Positions 334 to 13,635 of a stretch of 64,000 nucleotides of DNA are shown here, in pieces. The notes below the pieces were generated by a model. That model was not told where the DNA came from and did not search any database. It saw nothing but the letters and a program-made list of their open reading frames with translations. How positions within the stretch are numbered: position 1 is the first letter of the stretch; the number at the start of each line of letters is the position of its first letter. Both the position numbers and the translations under genes were made by a program. The stretch is from contig JAPPMM010000043.1 in the NCBI GenBank assembly GCA_028819075.1, positions 62,001 through 126,000 of the forward strand, read 5' to 3'. This DNA comes from Gammaproteobacteria bacterium (GTDB taxonomy: Bacteria > Gemmatimonadota > Gemmatimonadetes > Longimicrobiales > Gaopeijiaceae).

Positions 334-1017
334 ATGAGCGGTTCGGGGATCCCCGTGGGACTGCTCATCGCGGTGGTGATCGGCCTGCTGGCGCTGCTCG
401 GCATCGGTACCCGCTACTACGTCCACGGGGACGTGAACGCCATCCATTGCCTGTTCAGTGTGTTCTTCTCGACCAATCTCCTGATCTGCTACTGGGAGAT
501 GTGCCTGTTCTTCCGCAGGGACCATGTCGCGGCGCGCGCGCAGCATTGGCGCCAATGGCGGCGTGAAACCGGCCGCACCCCGGCGGTCGAATTCCTGACC
601 GCCAGGGTTCCGCTGCGCCGGATCCTGTCGCCGACGGTCTGGGCCGACGTCTGGGCGACGTACTCGATGATCGATTCGGCGTACGAGGAGCGCGGCAGCT
701 TCGGCTTCGCTGCAGACGTCGGCAACGGGTTCGTGACGCCCATTCCGACATTGCTCCTGTACGCGGCGTATACCCTCGAATCTCTGTCCGCCATCGTGGC
801 CGGGATCATCGGGGCGATGCTCTTCTGGCAGTGGGTCTACGCGTCGTCGCTCTACTGGGTCAGCTTCTTCATGGCCCGGAAGCACACCCGCCTCACCAGG
901 CGTGAACTCTTCGTCTACGTGCTCGGGCTCAACGCCGTCTGGGTGTTGATTCCGATGTTCGGCCTGTACGTGTCCGTTCGTCTGATTCTCGACGGCGCCT
1001 ACGGCGTTCTGGGATGA
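334..1017 (+). CDS. Predicted multi-pass membrane protein, unknown function
   Basis: I do not recognise this family. The reading frame opens at 238, but that would leave almost no room for a promoter divergent from the Hsp70 gene, and the first 32 residues are polar and low in complexity. The start at 334 (MSGSGIPVGLLIAVVIG) puts a membrane helix at the N-terminus. Further hydrophobic helices lie around HCLFSVFFSTNLLICYW, the TPIPTLLLYAAYT region, IVAGIIGAMLFWQWVY, and a last one near VLGLNAVWVLIPMFGLYV, so about five segments are likely. An Arg-rich loop (about residues 65-80 from this start) sits between helices 2 and 3. No enzyme motif is visible. Confidence 0.6.
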   Translation: MSGSGIPVGLLIAVVIGLLALLGIGTRYYVHGDVNAIHCLFSVFFSTNLLICYWEMCLFFRRDHVAARAQHWRQWRRETGRTPAVEFLTARVPLRRILSPTVWADVWATYSMIDSAYEERGSFGFAADVGNGFVTPIPTLLLYAAYTLESLSAIVAGIIGAMLFWQWVYASSLYWVSFFMARKHTRLTRRELFVYVLGLNAVWVLIPMFGLYVSVRLILDGAYGVLG

Positions 1018-1019
1018 AC

Positions 1020-1054
1020 TGGACATCACTGGTGACTGGTCATATAATATGTCC
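1020..1054 (+). promoter_or_regulatory. Promoter with overlapping palindromic operator for phd-vapC
   Basis: TGGACA (1020-1025) and TATAAT (1043-1048) are separated by exactly 17 bases, a good sigma-70 type promoter. The -10 box sits inside the near-palindrome CATATAATATG (1041-1051), extended by GG and CC at both sides. An antitoxin bound here would occlude RNA polymerase, as in other autoregulated toxin-antitoxin operons. A ribosome binding site AGGAGG follows at about 1065-1070. Confidence 0.6.
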
Positions 1055-1078
1055 ATATCATGCTAGGAGGATGAAGCC

Positions 1079-1336
1079 ATGAAGACACACCCGAAGGCGC
1101 AGGAGAGCACGGCGCCGCCCCGGAGGATCGGCGCGGCGCGATTCAAGGAGCAGTGCCTCGCGTTGCTGGATCGGCTCGGTCCTGACGGCCTGGTGATCAC
1201 CAAGCGAGGCAGACCGGTCGCGCGGGTGTTGCCCTACGATCGGGACTCGGCCAGCCTGATCGGCAGTCTGCGGGACAAGCTCGAGATCCGGGGGGATATC
1301 ATGTCCACGGGGATTCGCTGGGACGCGGAGTGCTGA
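1079..1336 (+). CDS. Phd/YefM-type antitoxin
   Basis: An 85-residue protein of the prevent-host-death/YefM antitoxin family. It has the typical N-terminal DNA-binding half with FKEQCLALLDRL, then the family hallmark VITKRGRPVARVLP (residues ~39-53) and a loose C-terminal tail that in this family wraps around the toxin. The start follows AGGAGG by 7-8 bases. The stop codon overlaps the GTG start of the following PIN toxin, so the two are translationally coupled. It should neutralise the PIN nuclease and, with it, repress the promoter just upstream. Confidence 0.88.
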   Translation: MKTHPKAQESTAPPRRIGAARFKEQCLALLDRLGPDGLVITKRGRPVARVLPYDRDSASLIGSLRDKLEIRGDIMSTGIRWDAEC

Positions 1337-1692
1337 ACCTCGACACGCATATCCTCATCTACGCCCTGCGCGGAGAACTGGCCGAAAGCGAGCGGCAATT
1401 GCTCGCCGAAACGCAGTGGTCGGTCTCCTCCATCGTCTTCTGGGAGATCGCGAAGCTCAACCAACTGGGCCGGGTCGGGGTGGACCTCGACGACCGGGAC
1501 GTGGTCCGGGCCCTGAGTCGCATCCGCTCGTGGCCGATCGATCTGGCAGTGGCCCGCGCCTCGGCCCGTCTGGATTTCAGGGGCGATCCGGCCGACGAGA
1601 TCATCGCGGCGACCAGCGTCGTCCACGGAATCCCGCTCGTCACGCGGGACGCCGTGATTCGCAGGTCAACGCTCGTCCCACTGGCTCTTTAG
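1330..1692 (+). CDS. vapC: PIN-domain toxin, VapC family
   Basis: A 120-residue PIN-domain ribonuclease, the toxin partner of the preceding antitoxin. The acidic residues of the PIN active site are present: D5 in LNLDTHILIYA, E39 in VFWEIAKL, D86/D89 in GDPADEIIAATS and D107 in VTRDAVI. Members of this family use these to hold Mg2+ or Mn2+ and cut RNA, often tRNA. Translation starts at GTG 1330, inside the end of the antitoxin gene (7-base overlap). Length and motif order are normal for the family, so the module looks intact. Confidence 0.9.
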   Translation: MLNLDTHILIYALRGELAESERQLLAETQWSVSSIVFWEIAKLNQLGRVGVDLDDRDVVRALSRIRSWPIDLAVARASARLDFRGDPADEIIAATSVVHGIPLVTRDAVIRRSTLVPLAL

Positions 1693-3992: not shown

Positions 3993-4136
3993 GTGTTCAC
4001 CGCGCCTTTCCGAGGGTCGGGTTGGTTTGCGCCACCAGCCCCAACCTATATTGCTGTCCGGCGACCGGCAGCAGCCTCATGCCGATATCGCGCAGCGCGC
4101 CGATCTTCCCGAGGTGAGCGAGTCGGCCATCGACCC

Positions 4137-5729
4137 ATGGAGAGCGAGCGGCACCGACGAGCCACGGCGCGCGGCGGGCTGTGGAAGGGGCTCAATCCCG
4201 CGATGGCGCTGGCCGCCAAGGGCGTCGTTCTGGTCTTCGTCCTCGCCACGGTTCGGGACGTGGAAGCCGCCGGCGCCGTCTTCGGCCGCATCCGCGACTG
4301 GATCGAGGGCACGCTCGACTGGTTCTACATCCTGACCGTCTGCGCCGCCGCCTTCACCTGCCTGTTCCTGGTGTGCAGCCGGTTCGGCAGGATCCGGCTC
4401 GGCGACGACGCCTCCGAACCCGAGTTCAGAACGTCCTCCTGGATCGCGATGTTGTTCTCGGCGGGAATCGGCATCGGGGTGCTCTTCTTCTCGGTTTCCG
4501 AACCGCTCTTCTATTTCGACACCAGCCAGACTGCGGGCTACCCGAACAACCCATTCGCCGACATGGCGGGCGCCGCGTTGCCGGACGAGCAGCGCGCCGT
4601 GCACGCGATGCGGGTCACCTACTTCCATTGGGGCATACACGGATGGGCCGCGTACGTCGTAGTCGGGCTGTGCCTGGCCTACTTCGGATTCCGCAAGAAG
4701 CTGCCGCTGACCCTGCGCTCGGCTCTCTACCCGCTTATCGGCGACCGAATCTACGGCCCGATCGGTGACCTGGTGGACCTGCTGGCGGTGTTCGGCGGGG
4801 TCTTCGGCATCGCGACCTCCCTGGGCCTCGGGGCGAGCCAGATGGCCACCGGACTCAACGTGCTGTTCGACGTGGATCCGGGTGTCGTCACGCAGGTCGG
4901 CCTCATCGCCGCCATCTCGCTGGCGGCAACATTGTCGGCGGTATCCGGCGTGAGGCGCGGGATCCGCATGCTGTCCGAATGGAACATCGTCCTGAGCATC
5001 CTCCTGCTCGGGTGCTTCCTGTTCCTGGGCCCCTTCACGTGGCTCGTCGAATTCGTCGCCACCTCCGTCGGCGCGTACCTGTGGCACGTGGTGCCCATGG
5101 GATTCTGGATCGCCGACACTCCGGACGAGGCCGCCTGGCAGAACGCCTGGACGATCTTCTATTGGGGATGGTGGATCTCCTGGGCGCCCTTCGTCGGCAC
5201 GTTCATCGCCCGCATCTCCCGCGGGCGCACGTTGCGCGAGTTCATCCTGGGGGTGCTGTTCGTCCCGACCGGCCTGGGGCTCCTGTGGTTCGGGGTTTTC
5301 GGCGGCAACGCCCTGCATCTGGAACTCAACGCCGCGGGCGGCGTGGGGACCGCCGGGATCATGGAACTGGTTCGGGCGGCAAACTACGAAGCCGCGCTTT
5401 ACGCGACCATCGGCCAGATGACCGACGCCGGCTGGCTCGCCTGGGCCATGTCCGCCATGGCCACCCTCCTGCTGGCGACCTGGTTCGTCACGTCGTCCGA
5501 CTCCGGCACCCTTGTCATCACCACCTTCCTGAGCATGGGCGACGCTCATCCCCCGCGGCGCTTCCGCATCGTCTGGGGACTCGGCGTGGGGGCGGTGGCC
5601 GCCGTACTCCTGCTTGCCGACGGCCTCCAGGCCCTGCAGACCGCAGCCATAGCCGCCGCCCTGCCCGTGAGCGTCGTGCTGCTGTTCATGATGGCCGGGC
5701 TGCTCAGGTCGCTGGCACGGGATCCGTGA
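4137..5729 (+). CDS. BCCT-family betaine/choline/carnitine transporter
   Basis: A 530-residue, roughly 12-helix inner-membrane transporter of the BCCT family, which imports quaternary ammonium compounds such as glycine betaine or choline with Na+ or H+. The family signature is intact in the C-terminal half: FYWGWWISWAPFVGTFIARI followed by SRGRTLREF. The earlier frame extension from 3993 is rich in Arg and Pro and overlaps the divergent promoter region, so the ATG at 4137 (MESERHRRATARGG, then a first membrane segment) is preferred. The C-terminal cytoplasmic tail is very short, so osmosensing of the BetP type is unlikely. It stands alone. Confidence 0.92.
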   Translation: MESERHRRATARGGLWKGLNPAMALAAKGVVLVFVLATVRDVEAAGAVFGRIRDWIEGTLDWFYILTVCAAAFTCLFLVCSRFGRIRLGDDASEPEFRTSSWIAMLFSAGIGIGVLFFSVSEPLFYFDTSQTAGYPNNPFADMAGAALPDEQRAVHAMRVTYFHWGIHGWAAYVVVGLCLAYFGFRKKLPLTLRSALYPLIGDRIYGPIGDLVDLLAVFGGVFGIATSLGLGASQMATGLNVLFDVDPGVVTQVGLIAAISLAATLSAVSGVRRGIRMLSEWNIVLSILLLGCFLFLGPFTWLVEFVATSVGAYLWHVVPMGFWIADTPDEAAWQNAWTIFYWGWWISWAPFVGTFIARISRGRTLREFILGVLFVPTGLGLLWFGVFGGNALHLELNAAGGVGTAGIMELVRAANYEAALYATIGQMTDAGWLAWAMSAMATLLLATWFVTSSDSGTLVITTFLSMGDAHPPRRFRIVWGLGVGAVAAVLLLADGLQALQTAAIAAALPVSVVLLFMMAGLLRSLARDP

Positions 5730-5808
5730 TGGGGTCGGGAGCGGAGGGGTCCGCTTAGGAAAACTTTCTTCCTTGGCGGGATTCCAAGAAAAGCGAAGGG
5801 CCGGAACT

Positions 5809-5844
5809 TTTCGTTAGTCCTTTCCAACGAAGACGCTAACGAAA
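5809..5844. repeat. Inverted repeat, 9-bp arms, between BCCT gene and HNH gene
   Basis: TTTCGTTAG (5809-5817) and CTAACGAAA (5836-5844) are perfect inverted copies 18 bases apart. They lie in a visibly AT-richer 150-base stretch that separates the 3' ends of two converging genes. A second weaker hairpin (CTTGG/CCAAG) is just before it at about 5772-5788. A bidirectional terminator is the simplest reading, although there is no clear T-run. Confidence 0.45.
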
Positions 5845-5878
5845 GTAAACGCCTTGAATCTTTCTTACGGCGGCGCCA

Positions 5879-6934
5879 TCACGCCGCGGACAGAATCCTT
5901 CGCCAGCCGTCCGACAGCGGCCTCAGTTCTTTCGCCTGAACCCATACCTGCCGCCCCGCATGGTGGGCCTGACCGTAGGCCCAGCGTGCGATCCGACGAG
6001 TCGCGGGCCAATCATGCAGCACCTTCAGCTCGTCGAAGCCATCACGCAGTTCGTCCCGGCAGATACGATTCCGCTCGGTCCATCGTTCGAGGTGCTCTTC
6101 CGCGGCGAGCAGGTCCGACTTGCTCGAGTTACACCCCTGGTGGGCCAGTACGAAGTTGTGGCCAAGGTCCAGCGAGTACAGCCTCCATGGGATGAAGTGG
6201 TCGACATCGGCCCGCGACCTGATGTCGCGTTCGCAGTAGAAGCGTCGGCCCCGCTGCACTTCCCGGAGCAGGGGACGGTACACGGCGAGTGAGCTGCGTT
6301 GCGATCCGAACAGGAACGACCGCAGGTCCACGACCTGGCCCAGAAGGCGAGGGTTGCGCCGCTGGACGAAGTGGGACCATGCTCCCTCGATCATGTCGGT
6401 GATCATCGGATAGAAGGCCCGAAAGCAGTATGCGACTCCGGGTTCGAGCCGAACGGTTCCACCGGCGTCCAGATTCCTGTAGAGGAACTCCAGGCGTTCG
6501 GACCCGACCGTCTGCAGCTTCCAGAGCGGCATCTTCCTTACCGTCTGCTCAACCTTGCGCCGCAGGGCGCCCCAGTCCGAGGGACTTCTCTCCAGATCGG
6601 CCAGAGAGCCTTGGTATCGGTTGTGGCGCTCCGCCAATTCGCGCACGATTGCCGCCTGTCGGCCCGTGTTCTGACTGAGGATCCCCGAGTCGCTACCGGC
6701 GACGAACGGAGCGACCTGGGGCCAGTAGAGTCGGACAAACTGTCCGGCGATCTCGGCAGTGGATAGTTCCAGCTCATGGCCACTATCGTCGCCCCTGACC
6801 AGGCACAGGTCCGCGATGGCGTGCAGCAGCGCAAACTTGTAGCTGGAGACGAAGCTGCCCTCGTCCAGAAGCCGCTGGAGCGAACGCAGGAATGCGAGTT
6901 GCCCTTCGGCCGTTGGCGGTCGCGGCTCGTTCAT
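5879..6934 (-). CDS. HNH endonuclease domain protein, partner of DUF429-HIT protein
   Basis: A 351-residue protein with a C-terminal HNH nuclease domain. The core is VDHFIPW (244-250), then LGHNFVLAH (258-265) and the closing GCNSSKSDLL, giving the expected D/H-N-H order (D245 H246, N260, H265, N269). The first of the usual two zinc cysteines is missing (RRFYCERD has only C234), so zinc binding may be altered. The N-terminal 230 residues are helical and begin with SYKFALLHAIADL, a type of segment often seen in front of nuclease domains in restriction or phage-defence proteins. Its ATG overlaps the stop of the upstream DUF429-HIT gene by 4 bases, so the pair is co-translated. Exact substrate is unknown; DNA cleavage is the family expectation. 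Confidence 0.85.
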   Translation of the reverse strand: MNEPRPPTAEGQLAFLRSLQRLLDEGSFVSSYKFALLHAIADLCLVRGDDSGHELELSTAEIAGQFVRLYWPQVAPFVAGSDSGILSQNTGRQAAIVRELAERHNRYQGSLADLERSPSDWGALRRKVEQTVRKMPLWKLQTVGSERLEFLYRNLDAGGTVRLEPGVAYCFRAFYPMITDMIEGAWSHFVQRRNPRLLGQVVDLRSFLFGSQRSSLAVYRPLLREVQRGRRFYCERDIRSRADVDHFIPWRLYSLDLGHNFVLAHQGCNSSKSDLLAAEEHLERWTERNRICRDELRDGFDELKVLHDWPATRRIARWAYGQAHHAGRQVWVQAKELRPLSDGWRRILSAA

Positions 6935-8148
6935 TCGTCCCAGTACGCGGCGCGCTCGGGCACGACCCAGCGAATGCCGCCTCTCGGGTCTTCCACATCG
7001 CCTTCGAAGCGGGGAATGACGTGTACATGCGCGTGGTCCACAGTCTGGCCCGCCGCCGTCCCTTCGTTGAGGCCTACTGTGAAGCCGTCGGGTTCGGACT
7101 CTGACTGCAACTCATGCCGCACCCTGGCCACGAGGCGCCAGATGTCCGCCTGGGCTTCGGCGCTCTGGTCGAAGAAGGCCTCAGCGTGAGCCTTGGGGAT
7201 TACGAGCGTATGCCCGCTGCTGACGGGATACCGGTCCCGGATGGCGATGGCATGCCGCGACTCGGCGACGACGGAGTCCGCGGCGAGGTGGCAGAAGGGA
7301 CAATCGGCCGGAGGGGCGGCTTTGGCCGGCGCACTTGTGGGAGTCTCTCGGACTTCGCGCGGCCACCACATTTTTCCCTCGAGAAGTTCGGCCGGATCCC
7401 GGGATGCGGTGAGCGCGGAGAGCTCGTCCAGGTGGCGGGCCATGACCACGGCGGAAATCGCCGCGTCGAAGGCATCCTCCGACGAAGCCGCCTTGCCTGC
7501 GAGCACGTCATCGATCTCGAAAAAGCGGCGCGCCAGCGACTCCTTGCGCGCGGAATAGTCGGACTTGTTCACCGGCCCCGTGAGCAGCCGCGGATAGATC
7601 TCGATCACCAGGGGCGACTTGACCTCGTGAAAGGGCCAAATCGAGAAGCCTTCCCGCCGGAGTGCCGCCACGTGAGGTATCCCTCGGATCGAGCCCGTGC
7701 CGACCGCGCCCGCGCCGCCAATCTGGAAGACGCTCTTCGGAAACGAACTCTCCAGGTCAGACGCTTGCTTCTCCGTCTTCCGAAGGAGCTCAAGCCCGGT
7801 CGGTTTCTTTCTTCCAGGTCTCCCCCAGAACGGGGGCGGGCAATCGCGCAGCCATTCCTCGCCGTGCCTGGCAACGAGCTTCCAAACGTCCTCGCTCGAC
7901 TTCGCGCCCTCTCGCTCAGCAAACCAGCTGGGAAACGAAAACGCGAAGTCAAGGCCAATGACAACATCGGGGTGCGCATTGGCATCCTCGATCAGATGCG
8001 TGACTACTTCCTGACGATCACGTCCCGACTCCAGCCGCGTGAGGCGTCCGCCTCGAACCTCGGCAAGCCAGATCTTGGATCGCGCCCCGGCCTTCGCTCC
8101 GGACCAATCGACTGCTATGACGCGTTTCACGGCATAGGGCGCCTGCAC
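6931..8148 (-). CDS. DUF429 (RNase H-like) - HIT domain fusion protein
   Basis: A 405-residue fusion. Residues ~8-260 match the DUF429 type: IAVDWSGAKAG (D14) at the first strand, VIGLDFAFSFP (D67), VIEIYP (E183) and EDAFDAAISA (E224 D225, D228), spaced like acidic residues of an RNase H-like fold. A Pro/Ala linker leads to a HIT domain (~283-400) with CPFC (283-286) and the catalytic histidine triad DHAHVHVIP (H372, H374, H376). HIT enzymes hydrolyse or transfer nucleotidyl groups, for example dinucleoside polyphosphates or adenylated substrates. The start is GTG at 8148, or GTG at 8130. The gene is coupled by a 4-base overlap to the HNH gene. I infer a two-protein nucleic-acid/nucleotide processing system, perhaps defensive; no function is proven. 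Confidence 0.85.
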   Translation of the reverse strand: MQAPYAVKRVIAVDWSGAKAGARSKIWLAEVRGGRLTRLESGRDRQEVVTHLIEDANAHPDVVIGLDFAFSFPSWFAEREGAKSSEDVWKLVARHGEEWLRDCPPPFWGRPGRKKPTGLELLRKTEKQASDLESSFPKSVFQIGGAGAVGTGSIRGIPHVAALRREGFSIWPFHEVKSPLVIEIYPRLLTGPVNKSDYSARKESLARRFFEIDDVLAGKAASSEDAFDAAISAVVMARHLDELSALTASRDPAELLEGKMWWPREVRETPTSAPAKAAPPADCPFCHLAADSVVAESRHAIAIRDRYPVSSGHTLVIPKAHAEAFFDQSAEAQADIWRLVARVRHELQSESEPDGFTVGLNEGTAAGQTVDHAHVHVIPRFEGDVEDPRGGIRWVVPERAAYWDE

Positions 8149-8161
8149 AGTTCCTCACGCC

Positions 8162-11100
8162 TCACGACACCAGCCCCGCCGCCGTCTCCACCTCGATCTC
8201 CTCCATCCCCAGCCGCCTCAACTCGGCGTTGACCTCGGCCAACTCGTCCGCCCAGACGGCCTGGAGCCGGGTCAGGTGACCGTCGAGCCGCTCCACCATG
8301 ATCTCGTAGACCGCGTACATGCCGCTTCCGGGGCGCCCGTCGCCCTGCTCGGACATCGACAGCAGGTTGGCCAGGCGGTTGTTCACCCTGATGGGGAAGT
8401 TGAGGGGATCCTGGTTGGACTGGTTGCGCACCTGGTAGATGTCCGCTTCCACCGCCGACGCGCTCTCCCGCAGCCGCTCGCCCGCGCCGGCCAGCCGCTC
8501 ATCGTCCGACGCCTCCAGCCGCTCGTCCAATTGCGCCTTCACGTTCCGGATCGCGATCACGGCCGAGTTGGCCTGGTGCACCCGGTCCCGGATCTCGACG
8601 CCGAACTCGTACTGGGCGACCAGATCCTCCTCGGTCACGTCGGTGATCCACGGGTGGGGGCGGACCTCCACCTCGGTGGTCTCGCTGCGGTTGCCAACGG
8701 TGAGCCGCGCCGTGTACATGCCCGGCAGGACCGCGGGCGCCATCGTACGCACGCCCCAGAGGATCATCCCCGGGAAGGTCGCCGGCGGATCCGTGCGCAG
8801 GTCCCAGCGCAGCCGGTTCAGCCCCGCCTCCAAAGGCAGCGCCGGACCCGCCCAGCGATCCCGCTCCTCGCCTTCCACGGCGGGCTCGAACGTGCGCACC
8901 ACATCGCCCGACGCGTCCACGATCTCGAGCGTCGCATCCCCCGGTTCATCGGCGAGCCACCACGAGAGCACCACCCCGTTCGCGGAACGATACGCGGCCG
9001 CGGGCTCGAACAGCACCAAGTCGCGCCCCGTCGTCCCCGGCTGGATCTGCCGCAGCGGCGCGATGTGGTCGAGGACCCAGAAGCCGCGCCCGTGGCTCGC
9101 CATCGCCAACTCGTCGTGCTCGGGGATCACGTCGGTGATTGGGATGTCGGGGAGGCCCGGGTTCAGCTCCTGCCAGGAACCGCCGTCGTCAAATGAGATG
9201 TAGACGCCGTGGTTGGTGCCGGCGTACAGCAGCCCCGCCCGGTTCGGGTCCTCGCGGATCGAGTTCACGTAGGCGTCGTCCCGGATTCCGTCAACGATTC
9301 GGGTCCAGGTCGCCCCAAAATCATCGGTTTTCCATACGTGGGGCCGAAAATCATCGAGTAGAGCGCGACGGGCCGAAACGTAAGCCCGCCCTGCGTCGAA
9401 CGCCGAGGCGTCGATGAGGCTCACGCGCCCGAAGTCCGGCATGTCGGGGGGCGTCACGTCGGTCCAGTTCTCGCCCCCGTCGCGCGTCACGTGCACGAGC
9501 CCGTCATCGGAACCCGTCCAGATCACGTCGATGTCGACCTTGCCGGGACCCACGGCGAAGATCGTCGCATAGACCTCGGGGCCGTTCATGTCGCCGGTGA
9601 TGGGCCCGCCGGAACGTCCCAGCGTCATGGGGTCGGCGCGGGTGAGGTCGGGGCTCAGCACGTCCCAGTTGGTGCCGCCGTCGGTGGTCCGCCATAGCCG
9701 GTTCGACGACGCGTACAAGACGTCGGGATCGATGGGCGAAAAGATGATGGGAAAGGTCCACTGCCAACGCTCGACCATGTCCAGGGCCGGCTCCCCGGAG
9801 TAGAACCAGGGGTAGGGATTGACCTCGCGCGAGGTGCCCAGGCGCCGGTTGAACCGGTCGATGTAGCGGCCGTTGTTGGTGCCCGAGAAGAAGACGTCGA
9901 GGTCCTTCGGGTCGGGCGCGATATAGCCCGGTTCTCCGCCCCCGGCCACGTAGTGCACGCCCATCGAGCCCTCGGTGATCGCGGGGGCCCGCGCGTCCGC
10001 GGCTGCGGCTGCGGCGGTGTCGGCGTCGTCCGCATTCGCGGCTGCCGCGAGGGCTTGCTCGAAGCTACCCGCGTTCCAGTCTGACGGCAGGCAGAGCGTG
10101 CTGTTGTCGTGCTGCGACCCGCAGATGTGCCACGGGACGTGCGCCGTGGTAACGCCGTGGTAGAACTGCGCGGTGGAAAACTCCTGGTCGGTCCAGTCGC
10201 TCCCGGTGGTGAAGCTCACCGCGCCGCCGCCGTCGTTGGCCACCACGACGTGCGCGGGATCGTCGGGGTCGATCCAGAAGTCGTGGAAGTCGACGTGGGT
10301 GCCGTTGTTGATGACTTCGTAGGTGGCGCCGCCGTCGGTGGAGCGGAAGAGCGAGGTGTTCTGCACGTACACCACGTCCTCGTCGTGATGGTCCGTGAAG
10401 ACGTGCGTGTAATAGAACGCCCGCTGCCGGATTCGCCGCTCGTCGTTGACGAGCTCCCAGGTCGCGCCCGCGTCGTCCGAGCGGAAGAGGCCCCCGTCGT
10501 CGTGCTCGAAGAGGGCGTAGACCCGGTTCGAATTGGCGCTCGAGACCGCCACCCCGATCCGGCCCACGACGCCCTCGGGCGGCATCCCCGGATTGCGGGT
10601 CATCTCGGTCCACGTGCTCCCGCCGTCGACGCTTTTGAACATGCCGCTGCCCGGCCCGCCGGAGGACATCGTGTACTCCTTGCGGAAGGCCTCCCAGAGC
10701 GACGCGTAGAGCACGTCGGGGTTGTTGCGGTCGATCGCGAGGTCGATGGCGCCGGTGCGCTCGTCGCGGAAGAGCACCCGCTCCCAGCTGTCGCCGCCGT
10801 CGGTGCTCCGGAAGACGCCCCGCTCCTCGCTTGGCACGCCGTACTTTCCGAACGACGCCACATAGACGATGTCCGGATCGGTGGGATGGATGCGGATCTT
10901 GGAAATCCCGTCCGATTCGTGGAAGCCGATGTGCTCCCAGGTCTCGCCCCCGTCGCGGCTCCGGTAGACGCCGTCCCCGGGCAGGATGTTGCCGCGAATG
11001 CAGGTCTCGCCCGTGCCGATGAAGACGAGATCGGGGTCGGTTTCGGCGACGGCAACCGCGCCGACCGAAGCCGACGTGATCTTGAAGTCCGTCACCGGGA

Positions 11101-11371
11101 ACCATTCCTCGCCGCCGTCGACGGTCTTCCAGAGGCCGCCCCCGGTCGCGCCGAAATAGGCCTCCTGCGGGCGCCCCTTGACGCCGCTGACCGCGATGGA
11201 ACGGCCGCCGCGGTCGGGACCGAGGTTGCGCCACGAGTAGCCGGCCAGGAAGGCCGAGTCGAGGACGACGGGTGTCTGGGCGTGGAGAGTGGAGGCGAGG
11301 GGGGTCAGAGCGGGAGCGACGGCAGAGAGCGTCGTGACGAGCAGAAACGGCTTGAGGCGGAGGCGCTTCAC
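8162..11371 (-). CDS. Exported Asp-box (BNR/sortilin-like) beta-propeller protein
   Basis: A large secreted protein of about 1,070 residues. At least nine Asp-boxes of the S/T-x-D-x-G-x-T-W type are visible, for example SRDGGETWEHIG, STDGGDSWERV, SVDGGSTWTEM, TTDGGTNWDVL and SFDDGGSWQEL, which form the blade turns of sialidase or Vps10/sortilin-like propellers. The first propeller opens with NLGPDRGGRSIAV; a Ser/Ala/Asp-rich insertion lies near the middle, and the C-terminal ~300 residues add a beta domain and a helical end. The GTG at 11369-11371 has AGGAA upstream and starts a clear signal peptide (KRLRLKPFLLVTTLSAV), so it is preferred over the TTG at 11416. It is a paralogue of the protein at 17742-20852. 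Enzyme activity is not established for the family. Confidence 0.87.
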   Translation of the reverse strand: MKRLRLKPFLLVTTLSAVAPALTPLASTLHAQTPVVLDSAFLAGYSWRNLGPDRGGRSIAVSGVKGRPQEAYFGATGGGLWKTVDGGEEWFPVTDFKITSASVGAVAVAETDPDLVFIGTGETCIRGNILPGDGVYRSRDGGETWEHIGFHESDGISKIRIHPTDPDIVYVASFGKYGVPSEERGVFRSTDGGDSWERVLFRDERTGAIDLAIDRNNPDVLYASLWEAFRKEYTMSSGGPGSGMFKSVDGGSTWTEMTRNPGMPPEGVVGRIGVAVSSANSNRVYALFEHDDGGLFRSDDAGATWELVNDERRIRQRAFYYTHVFTDHHDEDVVYVQNTSLFRSTDGGATYEVINNGTHVDFHDFWIDPDDPAHVVVANDGGGAVSFTTGSDWTDQEFSTAQFYHGVTTAHVPWHICGSQHDNSTLCLPSDWNAGSFEQALAAAANADDADTAAAAAADARAPAITEGSMGVHYVAGGGEPGYIAPDPKDLDVFFSGTNNGRYIDRFNRRLGTSREVNPYPWFYSGEPALDMVERWQWTFPIIFSPIDPDVLYASSNRLWRTTDGGTNWDVLSPDLTRADPMTLGRSGGPITGDMNGPEVYATIFAVGPGKVDIDVIWTGSDDGLVHVTRDGGENWTDVTPPDMPDFGRVSLIDASAFDAGRAYVSARRALLDDFRPHVWKTDDFGATWTRIVDGIRDDAYVNSIREDPNRAGLLYAGTNHGVYISFDDGGSWQELNPGLPDIPITDVIPEHDELAMASHGRGFWVLDHIAPLRQIQPGTTGRDLVLFEPAAAYRSANGVVLSWWLADEPGDATLEIVDASGDVVRTFEPAVEGEERDRWAGPALPLEAGLNRLRWDLRTDPPATFPGMILWGVRTMAPAVLPGMYTARLTVGNRSETTEVEVRPHPWITDVTEEDLVAQYEFGVEIRDRVHQANSAVIAIRNVKAQLDERLEASDDERLAGAGERLRESASAVEADIYQVRNQSNQDPLNFPIRVNNRLANLLSMSEQGDGRPGSGMYAVYEIMVERLDGHLTRLQAVWADELAEVNAELRRLGMEEIEVETAAGLVS

Positions 11372-11455
11372 GGTGGCATTTCCTGTGGATTCGGGAGCGG
11401 GGATCGGCCGGGTCAAGCTACCGGAGCGACGGAGGATGCTACAAGCAAACGGCCG

Positions 11456-11895: not shown

Positions 11896-12195
11896 TTAGA
11901 GCGTGGGTGCGGACGGACGATAGGGTTCGACGTTGACCTCGCCTTCCCGCTGCCGGGTGCGGGCGATGTCGTAGGAGGCCTGCATCCGCATGAGCGTGTC
12001 CATCTTCACCCCGAACGCCTTCTCGATCCGTAGGGCCATGATGCCGGACAGGCTCGACCGACCATTCAGAAATGTGGAAAGCGCCGGTCGGGACACTCCG
12101 AGCACCTTCGCGGCGGCAGCGACGGTCAGCCGGTGGGGTTCGATCACCTCGGTCTTCACGAAAGCACCGGGGTGTGGGGGATTCAGCATGCGCAT
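11896..12195 (-). CDS. higA: HigA-family antitoxin (XRE helix-turn-helix), apparently orphan
   Basis: A 99-residue Xre-type DNA-binding protein of the HigA antitoxin family. The N-terminus MRMLNPPHPGAFVKTEVIEP is the family hallmark, followed by the helix-turn-helix LTVAAAAKVLGVSRPALSTF and the SLSGIMALRIEKAFGV segment. Starts are possible at 12195 (ATG) or 12189 (ATG). HigA normally follows a higB toxin in the same operon; the sequence upstream on this strand (12196-12560) encodes no HigB-like protein in any frame that I can see, so the antitoxin may be solitary or acting in trans. The opposite strand upstream encodes a lipoprotein. Confidence 0.85.
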   Translation of the reverse strand: MRMLNPPHPGAFVKTEVIEPHRLTVAAAAKVLGVSRPALSTFLNGRSSLSGIMALRIEKAFGVKMDTLMRMQASYDIARTRQREGEVNVEPYRPSAPTL

Positions 12196-12336
12196 GTGCG
12201 ACTCCCGGCTAGTGGCGGCGCAGACCTGGATGGGCGATGTTCTCGGATTCTTACCGCGAAGTGTTGCGTGACGGTTTACGGAGATCAAGGGACGGCTCGG
12301 AGGCTGATCCCAAAATGCCAGGTTGGTCCGGTCACG

Positions 12337-13083
12337 TTGTGGATCAGGGGTGAGAGCCGGCTGACGAAGACGATCCCGCGGTTCATCGCGGTTGCGATCG
12401 TTGCGCTGTCCGCTGGTTGCCGGAGCCTTCCGACCGACACCGGCGAGGCCGTGGCCTTCCACTTCGATTTCGATGAGGGACCGCTGGGGTTCGTCGCTGG
12501 CTTCGCCGACTATCCTCCTGCTCATGAGGAGATCTACGAGTTGACATCCGGGCACCGTGCGCTCCCACCGCCTCTCGAGTCGCGGTCCGGGCTGTTTATT
12601 TCCGGTGTCAACAGAAGTGACGATCTGTTCATGTTCTTCAAGGGACTAATCGCCGGCCTGACCCCCGACGCGAGCTACGCCGTCGAGGTCAGCGTGGAAA
12701 TCGCGACGAGCACGCCGTCCGGTTGCGTCGGCGTCGGGGGTGCGCCGGGCGAGAGCGTCTGGATCAAGGCTGGCGTGACCGCCGAAGAACCGCTCGCGGT
12801 CATGGATGATTCCTACCTGCGCATGAACGTCGACGTCGGAAGTCAGTCCAACAGCGGCACGCAGGCGGTGGTGCTCGGCGACGTGGCCAACTCGCGGCAG
12901 TGCGAGCAGTCCCCCGAATGGGAACTCAAGGCCCTGGAGAGGCAATCGATACCGGCAAGTCTCTCCGTGCCCGCCGATGGCCGCGCGTGGCTCCTGATCG
13001 GCGCCGATTCGGGATTCGAGAGCCGGACGGACGTGTACTTCACGCGCGCGTCGGTTACGCTGACGCCGAGTCCGGGGGGATGA
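12337..13083 (+). CDS. Conserved lipoprotein of unknown function
   Basis: About 248 residues. The N-terminus has basic residues, the hydrophobic run FIAVAIVAL and the lipobox LSAGC, so it is a lipoprotein. The start is uncertain: TTG at 12337 places this signal correctly, while the frame itself stays open to 12133, overlapping higA on the other strand. The mature part begins with VAFHFDFDEGPLGFVAGFAD and contains SDDLFMFFKG, PSGCVGVGG and WLLIGADSGFES, a pattern shared by a widespread set of uncharacterised secreted proteins that look like beta-sandwich (galactose-binding-like) domains. I cannot assign a ligand. It is followed at once by the macro/transposase chimera. Confidence 0.65.
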   Translation: MWIRGESRLTKTIPRFIAVAIVALSAGCRSLPTDTGEAVAFHFDFDEGPLGFVAGFADYPPAHEEIYELTSGHRALPPPLESRSGLFISGVNRSDDLFMFFKGLIAGLTPDASYAVEVSVEIATSTPSGCVGVGGAPGESVWIKAGVTAEEPLAVMDDSYLRMNVDVGSQSNSGTQAVVLGDVANSRQCEQSPEWELKALERQSIPASLSVPADGRAWLLIGADSGFESRTDVYFTRASVTLTPSPGG

Positions 13084-13089
13084 TCGGAG

Positions 13090-13635
13090 ATGGCTCCTGC
13101 TCCATTGGGAGGAATGGCGGCGGGATCGTCGGCAAGGATGGTGGTTGTCGTTGGCGATATCACGAAGCTTACGGTGGACGCAATCGTCAACGAGGCGAAC
13201 CGGTCGCTATTGGGTGGTGGCGGGGTGGACGGCGCCATCCACAGGGCCGCCGGGCCGGGCTTGCTCGATGAATACCGTAATCTCGGGGGATGCGAGACCG
13301 GTGACGCCAAGATCACACGTGGGTACGGCTTGCCGGCGGCTCATGTGATCCACACCGTGGGGGTCGGCAGGCCCCAGTCCAACGGCTTCATCGAGCGGTT
13401 CCACCGCACGCTCCTCGAAGAACATCTCCGGATCAAGGGACGGACGACCTGGTACGAGACCGTCGAGGAGATGCAGAAGGATCTGGACGTGTATCTTGAG
13501 ACCTACAACCGGCGCCGGCCCCACCGCGGCCGCGGCATGGAAGGGCGGACGCCCTACGACGTCTTCAAGGCCGGGATCCCCCGAAAGCGAACCCGCAAGC
13601 CCTCAGCCGGGAAGGAGGTGAAGAAGGCAGCGTAG
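13090..13635 (+). pseudogene. In-frame chimera: truncated macro domain fused to transposase C-terminus
   Basis: A 181-residue open frame made of two unrelated halves. Residues ~17-91 are the first half of a macro (ADP-ribose-binding) domain: [16 protein letters not shown], then [18 protein letters not shown] and HVIHTVG, exactly where the fold should continue. At residue ~92 it switches to the C-terminus of an IS481/IS3-type transposase: [20 protein letters not shown] (with the third catalytic acid of the DDE triad), [11 protein letters not shown] and GRTPYDVF. The macro domain lacks its second half including the second phosphate loop, and the transposase lacks its first two acids, so neither activity is expected. 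The likely original start is ATG 13138. An insertion followed by deletion explains the join. Confidence 0.85.

Follow-up and report, generated by a model that had tools for sequence, protein, structure and literature searches.

An HNH nuclease gene co-translated with a DUF429-type-HIT fusion gene: a candidate mobile immunity module with exchangeable enzymatic partners

Two overlapping minus-strand genes in the window (the whole 64,000-nucleotide stretch of DNA that was analysed) encode an HNH nuclease and, upstream of it, a protein in which an RNase H-like domain of the DUF429 type precedes a HIT domain. The pair may well be an uncatalogued, compact and mobile immunity module, in which a DNase effector of the Cas9 HNH type is combined with a nucleotide-acting regulatory partner; we give this reading a probability of about 0.5. 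It is favoured because the pair is mobile, occurs across several phyla and is often found among anti-virus genes, and because the HNH protein stays constant while its partner is swapped. The residues conserved in HNH nucleases lie in this constant part, the likely effector.

The fusion gene (6931 to 8148, minus strand) encodes 405 amino acids from a GTG start at 8148; translation may instead begin at the GTG at 8130, since relatives begin at MKRVIAVDW. It is followed by the HNH gene (5879 to 6934, minus strand; 351 amino acids), and the two share the four bases of an ATGA stop/start overlap at 6931 to 6934. Both reading frames, their strand and the overlap are as an earlier sequence-only reading of this DNA had given them, and the overlap recurs in most of the fusion relatives. 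The module is bordered on the left by a gene for a BCCT-type transporter (3993 to 5729, plus strand) and on the right by a co-directional gene for a VPS10/BNR-repeat-like protein of 1084 residues (8162 to 11416, minus strand), each present in eight out of eight genus genomes searched. The start of the fusion lies 13 bases past the stop codon of the latter gene, which ends at 8162, and a search of the window from 5700 to 8400 gave no sigma-70 promoter-like site. Near the module site, a VapBC-like pair (1079 to 1692, plus strand) and a HigA-like antitoxin reading frame (11896 to 12555, minus strand) were read by eye. A second contig, JAPPJO010000118.1, is from the same species as the window; its congeners are labelled Gemmatimonadetes/BD2-11, and its own Gammaproteobacteria label is probably wrong.

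The C-terminal part of the fusion (residues 282-404; 6937 to 7305, minus strand) is a HIT domain resembling FHIT and Ap4A phosphorylase, ending in a DPRGGxRWVxPxxAxYW motif. Pfam PF01230 matches residues 291-382 with an E-value of 4e-21, and HIT structures are matched with Z-scores of 13-15. The histidine triad, H372-A-H374-V-H376 (7021 to 7035, minus strand), keeps the HxHxH pattern in all nine aligned fusions, bearing out the earlier claim of a complete HIT domain with an HAHVH triad. Fold and triad, the latter within a GQTVxHxHxH motif, place the domain in the FHIT branch of the HIT superfamily; unlike the FHIT and Ap4A phosphorylase proteins, it is fused to an RNase H-like domain, is co-translated with an HNH protein and has its own C-terminal motif.

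For the N-terminal 270 residues of the fusion, Pfam gave no match. The gathering score of PF04250 (DUF429) was not reached by eight DUF429-type members, and this model also had no match in the window genome. When a profile of the region and its stand-alone relatives was compared with PF04250 members using hhalign, probabilities of 97-99% were obtained, against 0.0-0.7% for unrelated, column-shuffled and reversed controls, indicating remote homology across nearly the whole domain, with the same acidic motifs. The domain spans residues 9-263 (7360 to 8124, minus strand), and Asp14, Asp67, Glu183, Asp225 and Asp228 are invariant in eight relatives, including stand-alone forms; these acidic residues fit an RNase H-like fold and may be catalytic. 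The assignment of this fold comes from the profile comparison only, because the listed matches of the whole fusion model in the fold search were all to HIT proteins and in the N-terminal part much of the model has low confidence. Unlike DUF429 itself, the domain lies below Pfam detection and forms a separate family with stand-alone members of its own; judged from these profiles, the name is valid only at the superfamily level. Of the DUF429-HIT fusion originally proposed, the HIT half stands, and the DUF429 half stands as a superfamily assignment and not as a Pfam family.

In the HNH protein, an N-terminal helical domain (residues ~9-193) is followed by the HNH core and C-terminal helices. The core contains the motif C231-x2-C234...D245-H246...N260...C268-N269..K272 (6107 to 6244, minus strand), invariant or nearly so in alignment A1. 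Pfam PF01844 matches it with an E-value of 0.002, under the cut-off, and no NCBIfam family scores above cut-off. The predicted model has a pLDDT of 87, and its core superimposes on Cas9 HNH domains with a Z-score of 7.3 (97 residues, rmsd 3.3), a likeness at the level of the fold only. With the beta-beta-alpha metal core, the catalytic histidine and the flanking asparagine and zinc cysteines in place (Cys231, Cys234, Asp245, His246, Asn260, Cys268 and Asn269 are conserved), the protein belongs to the HNH nuclease superfamily. Although Cas9/IscB HNH is the nearest solved fold, the window protein has neither a RuvC domain nor a guide RNA, and its N-terminal domain is different. No confident structural match was found for that domain; its similarity to a winged helix (Z 5.7) is not meaningful. 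The HNH core and helical region recognised from sequence are thus upheld by fold and conserved residues, albeit with weak support from Pfam.

Homologues of the HNH protein are spread patchily over the phylum, being present in 26 of 395 genomes. A HIT gene of the same subfamily lies directly upstream on the same strand in 20 of the 23 loci with readable surroundings, many with the ATGA overlap, and the order of the fusion is retained in about ten distinct relatives within the phylum. Values of dN/dS are well below 1 in all three domains (0.15-0.41 for the DUF429 part, 0.20-0.31 for the HIT part and 0.11-0.30 for the HNH protein); purifying selection acts on both module genes. These low values and the ten or so relatives with the fused order show that the pair is not a product of chance. 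HIT and HNH genes are associated in Gemmatimonadota, Pseudomonadota, Actinomycetota and Bacteroidota, in both gene orders. A search from the HIT side of the fusion reached the pair independently, in the order HIT-HNH on Aromatoleum and Polaromonas plasmids, and in the order HNH-HIT on Hymenobacter and Persicobacter plasmids and in an Actinomarina genome; the HIT proteins that it reached in Jeotgalibacillus, Pontibacillus, Paraburkholderia, Thioalkalivibrio and Euryarchaeota have no HNH neighbour. Among the genomes searched, the fused form is confined to Gemmatimonadota. The sequence-only reading would have taken the pair as incidental if the fusion were unique to this assembly or if the homologues did not co-occur; neither is the case, with the pair kept at 20 of 23 loci in the phylum and found in three others.

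What stays constant at these loci is the HNH protein; its partner is a HIT protein, the DUF429-HIT fusion, a SAM methyltransferase or nothing recognisable. A small class I SAM methyltransferase (Methyltransf_25/TehB-like) adjoins the HNH gene in Acinetobacter, Pseudoalteromonas, Marinomonas and other Pseudomonadota. In all, a SAM methyltransferase gene is adjacent at 11 tabulated loci, and further such pairs are on virus-like contigs. Four more cases, one in Thioalkalivibrio and three in other genomes, have the methyltransferase and a divergent SYK-type HNH domain joined in a single protein of ~560-640 residues (L058/L114, L064, L065 and L066). A second HNH family, B, related to the first at 99.6% in hhalign, likewise has a HIT protein or a methyltransferase as partner, usually downstream; a search of 200 genomes from the phylum, which had no positive control there, did not detect this second family. 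A PRA-PH/MazG-like pyrophosphohydrolase, possibly a third regular partner, adjoins the HNH gene on two plasmids, once with a fragmented HNH gene and once in the opposite orientation. Among ten actinobacterial homologues, eight lack any recognisable partner, so one is not always required; several of these eight have nuclease, McrBC or helicase genes next to them. When the partner label was mapped on a tree of 53 HNH proteins, 14 changes were required, a number as low as this being reached in none of 200 shuffles. In this tree, the join of two long branches, the divergent methyltransferase fusions and family B, may be unreliable, by the tree program's own warning. The label is therefore clustered on the tree, yet changes more often than a single origin for each partner would require.

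All fused loci on the tree form one supported clade (100/98). It includes G066, in which the HNH reading frame is intact and no HIT or DUF429-type gene is detectable next to it. In G318, the sister of this clade, a stand-alone DUF429-type gene (L101:7375-8199), DUF4258 and DUF2283 genes, a stand-alone HIT gene and the HNH gene follow each other on one strand, an arrangement that looks like the state before fusion; a second, partial copy of the DUF429-type gene lies ~6 kb away (~880-1113, minus strand). Outside G318, no HIT or HNH neighbour was seen for the stand-alone DUF429-type relatives. From the single fused clade, the gene row of G318 and the lack of HIT and HNH neighbours in these relatives, it follows that the fusion arose once, in this lineage, from a HIT-HNH pair that is older. 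The unit proposed from the sequence therefore holds as a pair, but its exact form is particular to this lineage, the general unit being an HNH protein with an exchangeable small enzyme.

The site occupied by the module is variable. A blastn comparison of the G000 site with the same site in relatives showed that flanking homology ends at 5735 and restarts at 8160; the whole segment between (5736 to 8159), which contains only the two genes, is missing from G389 and G279. Across the genus of the window, the same transporter and VPS10-like borders enclose differing cargo: exactly the two module genes in the window species, the module and DUF433 in G161, Fic and the module in G077, Fic and YoeB in G085, a short segment lacking the module in G389 and G279 (with an Xre-type gene in G389), and a macro-domain gene and others in G098. 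The macro gene of G098 (L163) is intact, and its lipoprotein-like neighbour is the same as that at 12133-13083 of the window, where the start of a macro domain (13090 to 13635, plus strand) is in frame with what appears to be the C-terminal half of an IS transposase. Decay of either module gene is frequent, with the HIT gene frameshifted in G161 and the HNH gene split or stopped in G138, G247, G140 and G115, although sequencing errors are possible. Relatives of the module are also found on plasmids and virus-like contigs, the latter including methyltransferase-HNH pairs; annotated phage records contained no HNH homologue. A family B-like HNH gene stands alone beside prophage lysis genes (holin, amidase-like) at L171:3950-4957, like an accessory gene carried by a prophage.

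The search for known defence systems next to the module identified none in the window genome, where the site is variable and outside recognised defence islands. In two relatives, the DUF429-HIT and HNH genes lie directly downstream of the ZacA, ZacB and ZacC genes of Azaca, recognised by PADLOC in one (L096:8937-17779; E-values 3e-121, 4e-166 and 0) and by sequence in the other (L098:1919-10863). A second related helicase is encoded near the module in L096. The neighbours in other relatives include cas I-Fv genes, McrBC with type I restriction-modification, type I restriction-modification, a Schlafen-type helicase, a PLD-helicase-DUF3427 protein and a gene resembling cytosine methyltransferases together with a putative restriction gene; in Hymenobacter, the HNH-HIT pair is close to a NUDIX-DEAD helicase pair. 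The suggested link with defence thus holds, indirectly, for the relatives, with complete Azaca, McrBC, type I restriction-modification and cas I-Fv neighbours and mobile cargo, but not for the window site, which has no identified defence neighbour. A gene for an SOS response-associated peptidase (SRAP) recurs by HNH modules with different partners (L015:11147-11779, L114:405-1178 and L168:2481-3179).

PADLOC has no system model for the module and returned only generic similarity to HIT, PtuB, Cas9, PDC-M01B and mad2. In the open-access papers searched, no description of a HIT and HNH pair was found, in agreement with the earlier statement that no described system with this exact pair was known. 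As in type II Thoeris, where the HIT protein ThsC has been proposed as a regulator of the nucleotide signal (PMC8565338), a HIT-family protein is encoded beside a presumed effector; unlike Thoeris, the module lacks ThsA and ThsB, its effector would be an HNH nuclease, and the adjacent genes are a transporter and the VPS10-like gene. The PADLOC ThsC model matches the window HIT domain only as a generic HIT protein (E 1.6e-12). With Septu, the module shares an HNH nuclease effector, the match to PtuB being short and over the HNH core, but the rest of the HNH protein has no similarity and no PtuA ATPase adjoins it; its neighbours are the fusion gene and the transporter gene, and in relatives its partner is a HIT protein or a methyltransferase. 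The Zac genes are absent beside the module in the window, and adjoin it only in L096 and L098. Classical (type II) restriction-modification was set aside, as it would require a DNA methyltransferase for a partner: the window module has no cognate one, and the methyltransferases of relatives match small-substrate models (Methyltransf_25/11/TehB) and not DNA methyltransferase models. The SauUSI-like PLD-helicase-DUF3427 protein and the Hymenobacter NUDIX-helicase pair resemble the module in that an effector acting on DNA shares its island with a small neighbour that acts on nucleotides, but their effectors are different and contain no HNH domain. MazG and other nucleotide-acting domains appear in predicted defence candidates (PMC13092281). 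There is a real chance that the module is a distinct class in its own right.

In the proposed mechanism, the HNH protein would be a metal-dependent DNase effector. Its Cas9-type HNH fold is preceded by a helical domain, the probable task of which is to recognise DNA or a trigger. The substrate of the co-translated partner would be a nucleotide or some other small molecule. In the window, this partner would be an FHIT-like hydrolase with an extra RNase H-like domain; elsewhere it would be a stand-alone HIT protein, a small SAM methyltransferase or, possibly, a pyrophosphohydrolase of the MazG-like kind. In the uninfected cell, the partner would remove or alter a nucleotide signal, keeping the nuclease off or resetting it, and only when this balance is disturbed would invading DNA be cut. 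DNA as the HNH substrate, the anti-phage role, the direction of regulation and the role of the DUF429-type domain are what we infer. By analogy with the proposal for ThsC (PMC8565338), the simplest role that the partners could share is control of the nuclease via a nucleotide-type signal; the chemistries of HIT proteins and methyltransferases differ, so a single shared role is unproven. More tentatively, the module may represent a widespread and uncatalogued class of two-component immune nucleases, with one HNH effector and interchangeable small-molecule enzymes (HIT, SAM methyltransferase, possibly MazG-like); DNA restriction would then be gated by nucleotides or small molecules. If true, a very small (~2.4 kb) and widespread immune module would be added, combining a Cas9-like HNH nuclease with exchangeable enzymatic partners; the role of HIT proteins in bacterial immunity, a question left by ThsC, would become testable, and one logic would be suggested for the HIT, methyltransferase, MazG and NUDIX neighbours of immune nucleases.

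A different, rather unlikely explanation is modification-dependent (type IV-like) restriction, in which the HNH protein would cut DNA with modified bases and the partner would destroy modified nucleotides, sparing host DNA from being marked. Several partners (HIT, MazG-like) do belong among nucleotide-acting enzymes, the Hymenobacter pair is close to a NUDIX protein beside a DEAD helicase, and the neighbour of one actinobacterial homologue is a PLD-helicase-DUF3427 protein, of a kind for which binding to modified DNA has been predicted (PMC7159879). The methyltransferase partners, however, are at odds with such a nucleotide-destroying role, neither SRA nor another known modified-base reader was detected, and the winged-helix similarity of the N-terminal domain is, as already described, not meaningful.

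Slightly more doubtful is a toxin-antitoxin-like addiction unit, with the HNH protein as toxin and the co-translated enzyme as antitoxin, which would persist on mobile elements and might abort phage infection. The two genes are overlapping and mobile, either is often decayed, Fic, YoeB and Xre genes occupy the site in congeners, and DUF4258-DUF2283 genes are interposed in L101. Against this, the intact HNH gene of G066 without a detectable HIT gene and the mostly partner-less actinobacterial homologues would not be tolerable for an antitoxin-dependent toxin, and the part of antitoxin would have to be played by each of two unrelated enzymes.

An operon for DNA repair or nucleotide metabolism without an immune role is improbable. 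HIT and HNH domains are also found in repair proteins, and the SRAP gene recurs nearby, but the patchy occurrence, the mobile cargo, the plasmid and virus-like contigs, the defence neighbours and the frequent pseudogenes argue against it. That the genes are incidental neighbours, a chance arrangement in this assembly, might be suggested by the restriction of the fused form to Gemmatimonadota in the genomes searched, but is refuted by the recurrence of the pairing in four phyla and both orders, by purifying selection and by the precise insertion of both genes together.
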